Positions 26,322-30,963 of a stretch of 41,930 bases of DNA are shown here, in pieces (position 1 is the stretch's first letter; every line of letters starts with the position of its first letter). Origin of the DNA: Chitinophagaceae bacterium (lineage in GTDB: Bacteria; Bacteroidota; Bacteroidia; Chitinophagales; Chitinophagaceae); contig CANGSR010000004.1 in assembly GCA_947456055.1 (NCBI GenBank), forward strand, positions 1 to 41,930, read 5' to 3'. The position numbers were made by a program, and so were the translations under genes. Below the pieces are notes generated by a model. That model was not told the DNA's origin, ran no database searches, and saw only the letters and a list, made by a program, of their open reading frames with translations.

Positions 26322-27116
26322 ATGCCCGATTCTAAGATAAAAATAATAATCCTTGATGATGAAAAGGAGGCCTGCAATAACCTTAAAAACATCATTACCG
26401 AATACATTGACACTCAAATAGAAATAGTAGGTATAGCTTATAATACAATACAGGCTGGTAAATTAATAGACGAGTTTCAACCAGATGCTGTATTCCTTGA
26501 TATTGACATGCCTACCGAAAATGCCTTTAATTTCCTTAGCCGCATTACGCCATTCAATTTTGAGGTAATCTTTGTTACAGCATACGACGATTATGCAATT
26601 AAGGCCTTCAAGCTCAATGCAATAGACTATATTCTAAAACCTATTAGTATTGTTGAATTGAAAAATGCAGTTGATAAGCTTTCAGAAAGATTAAATGCAA
26701 AGAAATTAATTGCTTCTAAAGCCAGCACTTACACTGATATAGGTACCCTTATAAATAATAGGGCCAAAAATTCGAGAATCACACTCAAAGATGGCAATCA
26801 TATAGAAGTAATAGAGTTTAGCGATATCTATTTTATCGAGGCCCAGGGGAGCTATTCAAGAATTCTGTTTCAGAAAAACAATAATGCAAAAGAAATAATA
26901 ATGAGCACTTCTTTGGCTGAATATGAAGAGATTTTCCCAAAAGATTTGTTTTATAGGATTCACAAATCCTACCTTATCAATTGCCGGCACGTTAAGAATA
27001 TTATTAAAGATGAGTTTTGCCATGTGGTCATTAAAGAATTCAATCTTCCTGTAAGTCGCAGGAGATTCCCCCTTTTGGTTGATTTTCTGAAAACCAATGA
27101 ATTCTATTATGCATAG
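26322..27116 (+). CDS. LytTR-family response regulator
   Basis: 264 residues. Receiver domain 1-~125 with the acidic pair Asp12/Asp13, the phospho-acceptor Asp60 in VFLDIDMP, Thr86 in VTAYDDYA and Lys106 in YILKP. The C-terminal LytTR DNA-binding domain covers about 150-262 ('RITLKDGNHIEVIEFSDIYFIEA', shown in part, 'FYRIHKSYLINCRHVKNI', 'LPVSRRRFPLL'). LytTR domains bind paired direct repeats near a GTT core, and such a pair is found just past the kinase gene at 30083-30111. The gene precedes and overlaps the sensor kinase gene by a few bases, so both are translated from one message. Confidence 0.95.
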   Translation: MPDSKIKIIILDDEKEACNNLKNIITEYIDTQIEIVGIAYNTIQAGKLIDEFQPDAVFLDIDMPTENAFNFLSRITPFNFEVIFVTAYDDYAIKAFKLNAIDYILKPISIVELKNAVDKLSERLNAKKLIASKASTYTDIGTLINNRAKNSRITLKDGNHIEVIEFSDIYFIEAQGSYSRILFQKNNNAKEIIMSTSLAEYEEIFPKDLFYRIHKSYLINCRHVKNIIKDEFCHVVIKEFNLPVSRRRFPLLVDFLKTNEFYYA

Positions 27117-30027
27117 GCTTATCATAGTTTTCAGCTTATTAATAATCTCCTTATCCATACCCCTCCCCTCCTTTTGTCAAGACTACCCCATGGTACACTT
27201 TACCATGGCCGATGGCTTGCCCAGTAATACCGTGTATGATATTTACAAGGATACCAAAGGCTATTTATGGGTTTCTACTGATAAAGGTATCGCCCGTTAT
27301 AATGGCATAAGGTTCGAGGTTTTTACCACCTTCGACGGATTGCCTGATAATGAAATATTCTTTTTCCAGGAAGATTATTTTGGCCGTTTATGGCTGGCTA
27401 CTTTTAATGGCAATCTATGTTTTTATAAAGATGGCATGTTCCATACTGCCCAGAATACACCTTACCTCAGGATGGATTTCAAAACATCTTTCATCAAAAA
27501 TATCTTTCTGGAAAAGGATAGTAGCATTAGTTTCATCTTTTCCGAACAATTGAAATTCATCAATATAAACAAGGACATTACCCATACTTATCATATTGAT
27601 TCATCAAATGGACAGGCAAGTATTTTCTATTTAAAAAAACTCAATGACACTTCATTTGCTATTTCATTTGGCAATAAAACCTACTATTTAAACGATAAAA
27701 ACAAGGTTACCAAATCAGTAATAATTGAAGATTCATTAGCTACCAATTATATCTGGATACAGCATAGCGATTACTACTTTAATGACCGTATCATTAAAAA
27801 TGGACATAATAGCATTATTCACAGATTTAAGCCAGGTTTTACTTCCACCTACGACTTGCATAGAGCACTATTAGCTGATGGAAATATATACCTATGTACC
27901 AATAATGGCGTTTTTGTAAATGATACAAACCATATCCTTGCAGGCAATAATATATCATGTATTAATCAGGATATTAAAGGTAATTACTGGTTTGGGTCTC
28001 TTGGCAACGGCATCTTCACCAAATACTCCAAAGGCACACAATTATTCAAAAACCACTACAACGAAAAGGTAAAATACAGTGTTAACATTAAAAACCAGTT
28101 GTTTTATATCACCTACGACAATATGGTCTTCACATTCAAAAATGGCAAAAGCACCCTATTATTCAATTATTTTGGTTTTAAAAATGAGAAATACCAAAAA
28201 GGAGTAGAACCAGCTTATTATATCGACACTAACTATAAATATTACTGCTTCTACTACAATGAATATATTACCATTGAGAATATTTTAGCAAGGCAATTGA
28301 GTATTAAACGCCTTAAAAGCTCAAATAGCTTTAACGACATTAAAGCACTATACCTTGATGGACCAACGATATACCAACAAAACAGGGTAAATATTTTCAG
28401 GCTCGATGCAGGAAACCTCAAACCAGGTGATGACTATAATAATTTAATTCATCCTCTAACGGACGTAAGGATTAAATTAAGGATTTATGCTTCCGGCAGG
28501 GATGTAAACAACTACATATGGTATTCTACTATCAACACTATCAATAAAATAGTTCAGGATACCCCTATTGATCAGAAACAATTCCGGAATATAGCCTTCA
28601 AATCATTTATTCTTCACTACAATTATATGGTAGGATATACCCATGAAAACCAAATGATTGTTTGTAAAGATTATGATAAGGACATCAAAATAGATTCAAT
28701 ACCTTTCCAAAATTGCATCTGGAATAAGTTCTATCCTATCGATAGAACCCATCTTATTGTGAGTACCAATAATCTATATAGGCTAATCACATTAAATGAA
28801 ATGGGAAATGGGAAAATCGCATCAGTTACGGCTATTGAAAATCCGTATATACCCCTTTTGGCAGAATCGGTAATTTCCGACACATCAAATTGTTACTTCT
28901 TTAAGGATGGGGATATTACAAGTATAAGTATTAAAAGTATACTGCAAAAACCAGAACCACCTGAAATCTATTTTGGTGTCCTGAAAACAAATAATAAAAG
29001 TTTTAATATTGGTAAGGTTTTAGAAATCCCCTACGATGATGCTAGGAATATGCAGATAGTATTTTCGGCCTTATCTTTCAATAGCAAATATGTACAATAC
29101 CAATATTCATTTTCTAAAAATGCCTTAGTCAGCTGGACCGATCTTAATGGAGAAGAAATTAGCCTGGTGAACCTGGGCTACGGTACTTATAATATCAAAG
29201 TAAGAGCCAAAACTATTTCTAGCAATTACTCCACCCCCATCCAGTTTACACTTGTTGTTTTAAGACCCTGGTGGGCTATGTGGTGGTTTTTATTAGTATG
29301 TATTGTTATTTCTGTAAGTATGGTTGTCTTATTGGTCAGGACCCGGATCAGGAATGCAATCCACAAACGGGAGAAAGAACATAACAACGAAATAAAATTC
29401 ATGAAATCGGAATACAAAACCATGAATGCCCTAATGAACCCCCACTTTATTTTTAATACACTCAATAATGTGCAGGGTCTTGTGAACAGGAACGATAAAC
29501 TGGCCGCTAATGAGTATTTAAGGGTGTTTGCCGACCTTATTAGGCAAAACATGCACAACATTACCAAAGAGCTGATACCGCTGCAGAAAGAGATTGATTT
29601 GGTGAACAACTACCTAACCCTCGAAAAACTCCGGTTTAAAGAACACCTTAATTACGTCATTAATATTGATGACGATGTAGACATTACCGACATTAATATC
29701 CCACCACTTCTAATACAACCACTCGTAGAGAATTCCATAAAACACGGCATCCTGCCAATGGAATCCGAAGATGGCAGTATAGAAATTAACATCTACGAAA
29801 AAGAACACATCCTGCATATAGAGGTCAGGGACAATGGCATTGGATTTGACGCATCAAATAAAAATAAGATAGCCGGCCATGAGTCTTTCGGACTAGAAAA
29901 TATCAGGAAACGTATTGAACAGCTCAACATAATCCAGGATATGAACTTATCATTTACAATCACCGAGATACCCGCTGCTAAAAACAATAACAGATGGACT
30001 ATAGTAACAATACTGATACCCGAATAG
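27109..30027 (+). CDS. Sensor histidine kinase with periplasmic beta-propeller (LytS-type)
   Basis: 972 residues from the ATG at 27109, which overlaps the regulator's stop by 8 bp (ATGCATAG); an ATG at 27097 would add four residues. A signal peptide (ends PSFCQ) is followed by Reg_prop propeller repeats, clear near the start ('MADGLPSNTVYDIYKDTKGY', 'LWLATFNG') and again further on ('CINQDIKGNYWFGSLGNG'). A Y_Y_Y-type Ig-like domain follows ('YGTYNIKVRAK'), then one membrane segment (about 720-745). The His_kinase domain has the phospho-acceptor in 'NPHFIFNTLNN' (His about 780), and the ATPase has 'PLLIQPLVENSIKHG' and 'DNGIGF'. Unlike hybrid systems it has no receiver or AraC domain and works with the separate LytTR regulator. 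Ligand unknown; propeller sensors of this type often sense periplasmic glycans. Confidence 0.93.
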   Translation: MHRLIIVFSLLIISLSIPLPSFCQDYPMVHFTMADGLPSNTVYDIYKDTKGYLWVSTDKGIARYNGIRFEVFTTFDGLPDNEIFFFQEDYFGRLWLATFNGNLCFYKDGMFHTAQNTPYLRMDFKTSFIKNIFLEKDSSISFIFSEQLKFININKDITHTYHIDSSNGQASIFYLKKLNDTSFAISFGNKTYYLNDKNKVTKSVIIEDSLATNYIWIQHSDYYFNDRIIKNGHNSIIHRFKPGFTSTYDLHRALLADGNIYLCTNNGVFVNDTNHILAGNNISCINQDIKGNYWFGSLGNGIFTKYSKGTQLFKNHYNEKVKYSVNIKNQLFYITYDNMVFTFKNGKSTLLFNYFGFKNEKYQKGVEPAYYIDTNYKYYCFYYNEYITIENILARQLSIKRLKSSNSFNDIKALYLDGPTIYQQNRVNIFRLDAGNLKPGDDYNNLIHPLTDVRIKLRIYASGRDVNNYIWYSTINTINKIVQDTPIDQKQFRNIAFKSFILHYNYMVGYTHENQMIVCKDYDKDIKIDSIPFQNCIWNKFYPIDRTHLIVSTNNLYRLITLNEMGNGKIASVTAIENPYIPLLAESVISDTSNCYFFKDGDITSISIKSILQKPEPPEIYFGVLKTNNKSFNIGKVLEIPYDDARNMQIVFSALSFNSKYVQYQYSFSKNALVSWTDLNGEEISLVNLGYGTYNIKVRAKTISSNYSTPIQFTLVVLRPWWAMWWFLLVCIVISVSMVVLLVRTRIRNAIHKREKEHNNEIKFMKSEYKTMNALMNPHFIFNTLNNVQGLVNRNDKLAANEYLRVFADLIRQNMHNITKELIPLQKEIDLVNNYLTLEKLRFKEHLNYVINIDDDVDITDINIPPLLIQPLVENSIKHGILPMESEDGSIEINIYEKEHILHIEVRDNGIGFDASNKNKIAGHESFGLENIRKRIEQLNIIQDMNLSFTITEIPAAKNNNRWTIVTILIPE

Positions 30028-30082
30028 CTAACATTTTTCTCACTCCCTTAGCAGTATTTCCCCGAAGACATGGTAGTTTTTG

Positions 30083-30111
30083 ACCGTTAATAAACTTTTA
30101 CGACCGTTAGA
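30083..30111 (+). promoter_or_regulatory. Candidate LytTR binding site (direct repeats)
   Basis: ACCGTTAAT (30083-30091) and ACCGTTAGA (30103-30111), with an 11-bp spacer (period 20 bp). The published LytTR-site form is two direct repeats of [TA][AC][CA]GTTN[AG][TG], about two helical turns apart with a 12-13 bp spacer. The first repeat fits at all positions, the second at all but the last, and the spacing is one base short. It lies 55 bp after the stop of the sensor kinase gene. Confidence 0.55.
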
Positions 30112-30115
30112 AAAC

Positions 30116-30123
30116 TATTTTTG
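30116..30123 (+). promoter_or_regulatory. TAnnTTTG (-7) box next to the LytTR-like repeats
   Basis: TATTTTTG is an exact -7 element 4 bp after the second repeat. No TTG/TTTG lies at the expected -33 distance; that space holds the repeats instead. This is the usual design of a promoter that depends on an activator. The expected start of transcription is about 30128-30131. Confidence 0.5.
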
Positions 30124-30127
30124 ATTA

Positions 30128-30261
30128 AATAAGCTGGTAAAAATAGATTGCACCCTGATTCGTTACCCACCTATCTATCCCATCAACGCCCCTTAATAAC
30201 CTTGCTTATTTTCTCATGGAAAATATTCCCCCAAACCAGGCTAGCACCTGGTTTTTTTTGT
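30128..30261 (+). ncRNA. Candidate small RNA (inferred, about 130 nt)
   Basis: Bounded by the -7 box at 30116-30123 and the terminator at 30234-30261. The predicted 5' end AAATAAGC (30127-30134) is complementary to GCTTATTT (30204-30211), which would close a structured RNA with a C-rich, mostly unpaired middle (ACCCACCTATCTATCCC). No protein-like open frame fills the space. The 5' and 3' ends are inferred, not observed. The alternative is that the terminator simply ends the kinase transcript 207 nt after its stop codon. Confidence 0.35.
30234..30261 (+). terminator. Intrinsic terminator
   Basis: A perfect 7-bp stem AACCAGG (30234-30240) with CCTGGTT (30247-30253), a 6-nt loop and a run of eight Ts. 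It is on the plus strand between the sensor kinase gene and the Nudix gene. Confidence 0.9.
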
Positions 30262-30537
30262 TTCAATTATTATTCTTACAATATTGGTTAGATTGCCTTG
30301 GGATAATTGATTGGGAAGCTTCAAAAAAAGTAGTCCCCCCAGGAAGAAATCAATTTACAGCCCTATTTATCATTAACATAACTTCAGAAATAATCCTTGC
30401 GGATTGTATCTTTGTTAAGCTGGCATTATTGATTTTTATGCAAATGTTCAGATTTACCAATTTGCAGGTCTACAAATATAATCTGTTGGAAAATCCTTAT
30501 ACCCGGCTTAATTCTTAAACCATAATCTATACGTTTT

Positions 30538-30963
30538 ATGCTTATACAGAATATTAAAATAGCCGCCGATGCCCTGGTGTTCAGCAAGGGTGAAGAATTG
30601 CAGATACTGCTTATAAAACGCAAAAACTACCCTGATATAGGCAAATGGGCCTTCCCGGGCGGGTTTGTTGAGGATGATGAAGATCTCGAAGCAGCAGCTA
30701 TCCGAGAGCTGGAGGAAGAAACCAGCCTCAAGGTTCCTTCTATGACCCAATTACACACCTTCGGTAAGCCAGGGCGTGATCCAAGGGGCAGGACCGTATC
30801 TGTAATACATTATGCTTTTACCAATGCGGCAGAAACTACCGTGGTAGGCCAGGATGATGCTGCACATGCCGAATGGGTAAATGTAAAAGACATTACAGAC
30901 ATGGCTTTCGACCACAAAATGATTTTGGATTTTGCGTTGGATGTGCTTGCCGGTCAATTATAG
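30538..30963 (+). CDS. Nudix hydrolase
   Basis: 141 residues, cytoplasmic. The Nudix box (Gx5Ex7REUxEExxU) is complete at residues 42-64: GFVEDDEDLEAAAIRELEEE, followed by TSL. The N-terminal strand 'ALVFSKGEELQILLIKRKNY' and 'GKWAFPGGFVEDDE', together with 'RDPRGRTVSVIHYAF' after the box, are typical of the ADP-ribose/NrtR-like branch, so ADP-ribose or a related nucleotide sugar is a plausible substrate. No C-terminal DNA-binding domain is present, which excludes an NrtR regulator. It is convergent with the aspartokinase gene, with 11 bp between the stops. Confidence 0.93.
   Translation: MLIQNIKIAADALVFSKGEELQILLIKRKNYPDIGKWAFPGGFVEDDEDLEAAAIRELEEETSLKVPSMTQLHTFGKPGRDPRGRTVSVIHYAFTNAAETTVVGQDDAAHAEWVNVKDITDMAFDHKMILDFALDVLAGQL

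Follow-up and report, generated by a model that had tools for sequence, protein, structure and literature searches.

What does a LytTR regulator paired with a propeller-type sensor kinase switch on? Kinases of this type with LytTR regulators were found in many of the genomes searched, and the region directly behind one such pair, in a member of the Chitinophagaceae, raises the possibility that part of the answer is RNA. The original prediction, made for the window (the whole 41,930-nucleotide stretch that was analyzed), held that paired repeats behind the kinase gene are a LytTR site driving a small non-coding RNA next to its own two-component system. We examined that prediction by genome comparison, and the binding motif, the promoter with a predicted start, the regulon and the RNA output described below were all obtained in this way. 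The features that the argument needs first are these:

26322-27116, plus strand: response regulator with both a receiver and a LytTR DNA-binding domain (Pfam Response_reg 5e-18, LytTR 9e-17), the proposed activator
27097-30027, plus strand: sensor kinase of the Reg_prop kind, with propeller repeat Reg_prop, His_kinase and HATPase_c (Pfam; orthologues)
30083-30115, plus strand: conserved element, repeats ACCGTTAAT (30083-30091) and ACCGTTAGA (30103-30111), each followed by AAAC; matched 61 times across 15 of 35 genus genomes, 53-site alignment; proposed binding site of the regulator

A repeat element behind the kinase gene

The closest named relatives of the regulator belong to MAGs called Flavipsychrobacter stenotrophus and to Taibaiella, which are likewise Chitinophagaceae. 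Orthologues were found in 16 of 35 same-genus genomes, with 46-100% identity, counting a fragment at a contig end in G024 and a gene with one internal stop in G026. The genome to which the window belongs has two regulator-kinase pairs, the second regulator being truncated at the end of its contig. Rfam and tRNA scans of positions 1-41,930 returned no Rfam family (0 matches at the gathering score) and no tRNA. Positive feedback on the regulator-kinase operon was considered and rejected, since inspection by eye of the sequence ahead of 26322 revealed no repeat pair.

The repeats described in the original prediction are present in the sequence, 55 bp beyond the kinase stop: two 9-bp units separated by an 11-bp gap, hence a period of 20. 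Direct repeats of about 9 bp spaced 11-13 bp apart are the form expected of LytTR targets, and this form is conserved. Pairs of the short motif ACCGTTA, allowing up to three mismatches, gave hundreds of matches in the window's own genome, fewer than the reversed control and exact only at the window; a longer element was required. The extended element ACCGTTNNNAAACNNTTNNNACCGTTNNNAAAC, again with up to three mismatches, occurred 61 times in 15 of the 35 genus genomes, against 2 occurrences of the reversed pattern, and once in the window's own 5-Mb genome. A DNA search with positions 30028-30300 against 60 genomes, including the window's own, hit six other places in five same-genus genomes at 81-91% identity, all of them within the repeat stretch and one right behind an orthologous kinase; a seventh match, in G041, covers 25 bases close to the terminator and is probably due to chance. 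A sequence-only model, R1, built from 53 aligned sites, matched 20 of the 35 genus genomes at E <= 0.05, and 17 of these had matches with E no higher than 1e-4. Its two good matches in the window's own genome (83% complete), at the window and at G000:C133:8183-8256, each lie right behind a clade kinase; an additional, partial match (E 0.04) is doubtful. Among 298 genomes drawn from the order, three were matched at 1e-3, the window's own well and two others weakly and in part, the scan being nearly empty outside the genus. By these comparisons of sequence, the direct repeats are real and strongly conserved.

The element accompanies the regulator. Among the 16 genomes in which a regulator orthologue is present, 14 have the element in its strict form, compared with 1 of the 19 without an orthologue (p = 7e-7); with G024 counted as lacking the regulator the figures were 13/15 and 2/20 (p = 6e-6), with R1 at 1e-4 they were 14/16 and 3/19 (p = 3e-5), and among genomes at least 90% complete 12/13 and 1/13 (p = 2e-5), all of these p values being too small because the genomes share ancestry. 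As expected from the prediction, the repeats were also conserved beside orthologous kinase genes. The genus contains 22 clade kinases (E < 1e-150), two of which end at a contig edge; behind 11 of the 20 evaluable ones (G000 twice, G012, G016, G019, G026, G027 twice, G028, G030, G032) the element stands on the same strand, within about 225 bp of the stop. The other nine have no element behind them, although in one of these, G008, the place is taken by a diverged pair of repeats (two copies of ACCGTT, with a period of 21) with TACATTGC, judged by eye, at the right distance. Outside the genus, the element overlaps the kinase end in Taibaiella lutea (E 1e-11), the only good match among five Taibaiella loci searched, the other four having no R1 match, and UBA7688 has a weak R1 match (E 0.002) in the equivalent slot behind the kinase. 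In the cultured isolate Taibaiella lutea KVB11 the promoter occupies the equivalent slot, but ahead of a protein gene.

The same pattern could arise if the element were the site of a different regulator that merely co-occurs with this one and tends to lie behind these kinases. G007, G010 and G033 have good R1 matches yet no clear regulator orthologue, and relatedness of the genomes inflates the association of element and regulator, as such a reading would have it. The form and spacing of the repeats, however, match those of LytTR sites, and the element stands directly behind 11 of 20 kinases, so that we consider a different regulator very unlikely.

Promoter boxes and the predicted RNA

Downstream of the repeats we assigned the following features:

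30120-30123, plus strand: TTTG as the -33 element, separated from the second repeat by 8 bp; 34 of 61 sites have TTTG at the same offset
30144-30151, plus strand: -7 box TAGATTGC, 20 bp after TTTG; in 30 of the 61 sites a TAnnTTG stands at offset 28 or 29
30156-30260, plus strand: predicted small RNA of about 105 nt, its start placed by the -7 box at -12 to -5; terminator; no closed ORF
30187-30201, plus strand: core CGCCCCTTAATAACC, C-rich and unpaired in the predicted fold; GCCC(C/T) shared by 13 of 16 RNA-type sites, against 3 of 46 others
30233-30259, plus strand: intrinsic terminator, 8-bp stem and eight Ts, read from the sequence

The original prediction had taken TATTTTTG (30116-30123), 4 bp past the second repeat, for a -7 box without a -33 element, and had placed the 5′ end of the RNA at AAATAAGC (30127-30134). 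In the aligned sites, TTTG starts 4 bases past the element in 34 of 61 cases and TAnnTTG 28 or 29 bases past it in 30, that is, 20-21 bp after TTTG; shuffles scored for TAnnTTG at offsets 24-43 gave a mean of 1.4 sites and a maximum of 6 in 1000 rounds. Because both offsets are conserved across the aligned sites, TATTTTTG contains the -33 box: the octamer is where it was said to be, but its last four bases are the conserved TTTG, the -7 box lies 20 bp further on, and what was conserved about the proposed -7 box proved to be its role as a -33 element. The 8 bp between the second repeat and TTTG lie within the 4-11 bp that separate LytTR repeats from the -35/-33 box. In Flavobacterium psychrophilum, one promoter class has a -7 box TAnnTTGY at -12 to -5 (excerpts of PMC9723704), and transcription would therefore start here near 30156. 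The boxes originally proposed were thus one step too far upstream, and the RNA would begin without the 5′ hairpin that had been drawn for it, AAATAAGC lying upstream of the start given by comparison.

Promoters of B. fragilis are described as TTTG / TAnnTTTG (excerpts of PMC7366714). At the conserved -7 place, TAnnTTGY was found in 27 of the 61 sites, neither form in 34, and TAnnTTTG, the box of primary-sigma promoters in Bacteroidota, in none (0/61). The 188 other upstream regions of the same loci contained 35 TAnnTTTG and 27 TAnnTTGY, and one shuffle of them 13 and 16. This preference for TAnnTTGY may reflect an alternative sigma factor or dependence on the activator.

Keeping the boxes as first drawn, with TATTTTTG as the -7 box, an RNA start near 30128 and a stem of AAATAAGC with GCTTATTT (30204-30211) that loops out the core, has some attractions. 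TATTTTTG fits TAnnTTTG exactly, the 8-bp complement of AAATAAGC and GCTTATTT exists and is reached by 3% of shuffles, and the folds of L104, L113 and L124 also place a stem around the core, though only that of L113 passes p < 0.05. Against this stand the conserved -33 TTTG that the other sites have at the position of TATTTTTG, followed by TAnnTTG 20-21 bp later, and the fact that a core-closing stem is not general: of the 12 members with mapped (predicted) starts, one reaches p < 0.05. The boxes as first drawn are hardly likely to be right; of the structure proposed with them, the C-rich middle is indeed unpaired in the window's fold, without the closing stem being a property of the family.

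The 3′ end agrees with the original prediction. A perfect hairpin, AAACCAGG (30233-30240) with CCTGGTTT (30247-30254), is accompanied by eight Ts at 30252-30259, three of them inside the 3′ arm. The claim that no convincing gene lies in the interval also holds, as the predicted RNA contains no closed ORF of at least 8 codons beginning with ATG, GTG or TTG. A 100-aa ORF at 30216-30518 was rejected as a gene: it has no Pfam match, starts within the RNA and runs through the terminator. That the true product is this ORF or a micro-protein would fit the micro-ORFs that follow other sites of the regulon and the 27-codon ATG frame of L122, but with no closed frame of at least 8 codons in the window's RNA it is highly improbable. 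Among 11 RNAs checked for closed frames of at least 8 codons, four (including the window's) had none, six had short GTG or TTG frames only, and L122 had its ATG frame. An independent promoter, a terminator and the lack of an ORF, the combination by which trans-acting sRNAs are recognized, are thus found together, as far as the letters of the DNA can tell.

Terminators scoring at least 14, a cut-off chosen after the scores had been seen (the next lower score was 12), were located by script at 11 of the 61 sites; they end 84-139 nt downstream of the first base of the -7 box. GCCCC or GCCCT within 90 bases of the -7 box was present at 9 of these 11 sites and at 6 of the other 50 (p = 1e-5). When RNA-type sites were picked by eye (15 of the 61 sites, plus L202), the core GCCC(C/T) was present at 13 of 16, compared with 3 of 46 others, L107 and L119 being two of those three. 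The 13 core-bearing sites come from 12 genomes (the window, L104, L113, L122, L124, L131, two in L133, L138, L141, L147, L149 and L202), so that 11 genomes besides the window's have such an RNA behind the same promoter; the RNA-type sites lacking the core are L108, L118 and the first one of L113. Five RNAs (L104, L113, L124, one of L133, and L138) have TGGCCC(C)TnnTAGACC in common. The RNAs are conserved over a short stretch. Outside the core their free alignment breaks down, and no common structure was found among them, the folds being different, with the core unpaired in the window and unpaired or partly paired in the others. The window's own RNA has no close relative for base-by-base comparison because in G023, the nearest genome, the sequence breaks off within the kinase. 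Duplex prediction, for the loci examined, gave for 7 of 7 RNAs a best duplex no better than the best of 20 shuffles.

In G011, G012 and G032, which are 97-98% complete and carry the regulator, the promoter of the RNA is the only R1 match at E <= 0.05. The same is seen at L202 (G033:C144:6497-6569), where the sole R1 match at that threshold is the promoter of a core-bearing RNA and no clear regulator orthologue was found; the regulator of G033 may be missing from the assembly.

The promoter could be driven by LytTR and its transcript still not act in trans, being instead an attenuator-bearing leader of the gene that follows. In seven genomes (L104, L113, L124, L131, L133, L138, L147) hutI, encoding imidazolonepropionase, lies just downstream of the RNA on the same strand, which accounts for 9 of 15 RNA-type sites tested. 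It is absent within 1.5 kb at the other six, including the window, and at L202. The next gene in the window is a NUDIX gene at 30538, with its own -7-like TATCTTTG at 30407-30414, which suggests a promoter separate from that of the RNA. A leader is therefore unlikely. Upstream of hutI in L113 and L133, two promoter-RNA units stand in tandem.

Other outputs and the proposed mechanism

The original prediction spoke of the RNA as the output of the sensor. As a sole output this is too narrow, because what follows most of the other sites is a secreted protein or a micro-ORF. Of the 11 elements next to a kinase, 8 are followed by an RNA of the core type and 3 (G000:C133, G027:C22, G030:C15) by a small ORF, of 24, 53 and 39 codons, followed by a large ORF with a signal-like N-terminus. 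The first of these, L154 (G000:C133:8183-8256, minus strand), is the second site of the window's own genome, behind the second clade kinase and ahead of the 24-codon ORF and its large ORF. Away from kinases, many sites precede large ORFs with a signal-like N-terminus; nine such proteins, our choice among 31 large ORFs, were scanned and contained Por_Secre_tail (five), NHL-type repeats (three) and Big_2 (four), with overlap.

Micro-ORFs of 36-53 codons start 36-40 nt past the predicted RNA start in L115, L126, L127, L141, L142, L145 and L146. By eye, the micro-ORFs of L126, L127, L141, L142, L145, L146, L103 and L115 appear to form families, with QVVxQTIYLYLLK, QPLNSxDxxLD or YVSIRAPGxQ in their products, and the encoded peptides might be functional in their own right. 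In L107 and L119 the GCCC(C/T) core stands right ahead of the start of a micro-ORF about 52 codons long, and an RNA with two functions is possible there; for G002 and G017, with the core just before a micro-ORF, a second, coding function of the RNA as in RNAIII is possible.

Taken together, the data allow us to put at about two in three the probability that this LytTR two-component system has a small RNA among its outputs, in the following way. Once triggered, the kinase (27097-30027) would act through the regulator at 26322-27116 or a close paralogue in the same genome, which would bind the direct repeats at 30083-30111 and recruit RNA polymerase to TTTG at 30120-30123 and TAGATTGC at 30144-30151; two repeats two turns apart beside the -33 box suggest that activation would involve direct contact with the polymerase. 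A short non-coding RNA would thereby be switched on, running from about 30156 to 30260 and closed off by the intrinsic terminator, and its exposed C-rich core (GCCCC), the likely pairing site, would most likely pair with target mRNAs. The RNA would belong to a lineage-specific LytTR regulon whose outputs also include micro-ORFs and secreted surface proteins. Comparison shows that the promoter is conserved and goes with the regulator and the kinase, that a terminator is present and that the core recurs; binding, activation, the transcript itself and target pairing are inferred. The central claim of the original prediction, a LytTR site leading to a terminator-ended non-coding RNA beside its own system, is thus borne out by kinase adjacency (11 of 20), co-occurrence with the regulator and the recurring core; its RNA start, its missing -33 element and its single output are not.

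More tentatively, and with the odds rather against it in this full form, the conserved output, in some species the only direct one, may be the C-rich RNA right behind the kinase, in a slot that is exchangeable and in relatives holds a micro-protein or a secreted protein, with the one-base-shorter -7 box TAnnTTGY setting the regulon apart. Since the same switch precedes similar RNAs, tiny proteins and secreted proteins in relatives, sensors of this kind appear to exert part of their effect through RNA. The targets switched on by propeller-type LytTR sensors are now directly testable.

Comparison with known systems

VirR of Clostridium perfringens is a LytTR-type regulator, Cur of Bacteroides thetaiotaomicron is of the CRP kind and not a LytTR response regulator, and the AgrC sensor of Staphylococcus aureus is not known to be of the Reg_prop kind. 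In the literature searched, which covered few subscription papers, we found no description of a LytTR regulon or of a LytTR-driven RNA in Bacteroidota; the excerpts of PMC5395568 mention LytTR regulators and candidate sRNAs separately. The comparisons that follow likewise draw on excerpts of the papers cited.

The promoter resembles those of LytTR regulatory systems. HdrRM, BrsRM and LRS-like Bacteroides operons have direct repeats of 9 to 11 bases, 11-13 bp apart and 4-11 bp before the -35/-33 box, and in LRS-like promoters of Bacteroides the repeats stand 11 bp before TGTA-19-TATCTTTG (PMC6193735). The form of the repeats and their distance to the -33 box are as in the window, but those systems drive their own operon or bacteriocin genes, whereas the window's element lies behind the kinase and drives a predicted RNA. 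The SM5 promoters of F. psychrophilum share the -7 box TAnnTTGY at -12 to -5 and have been attributed to an alternative sigma factor (PMC9723704). MasB of B. thetaiotaomicron is likewise a Bacteroidota sRNA under a dedicated transcription factor, Cur (PMC10994844).

In the agr system of S. aureus, the LytTR regulator AgrA recognizes direct repeats immediately ahead of its promoters, and RNAIII is made from one of these, beside the agr genes (PMC4227749). An effector RNA beside its own system is the same in logic, but the window has no Rfam match, its RNA is much shorter, and the sensor type and the promoter boxes differ. VirS/VirR of C. perfringens has the motif CCAnTT-n15-CCAGTT-n3-Cac (PMC4963840). 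VR-RNA comes from another phylum, measures about 386 nt and is encoded away from virSR (PMC4963840), whereas the window's RNA lies directly behind the kinase; as far as tested, the two are unrelated in sequence. In logic, VirSR with VR-RNA, and also with VirT and VirU, is alike: VirR activates regulatory RNAs as well as secreted proteins from direct repeats adjacent to their promoters (PMC4963840, PMC2838878), as we propose for the regulon described here.
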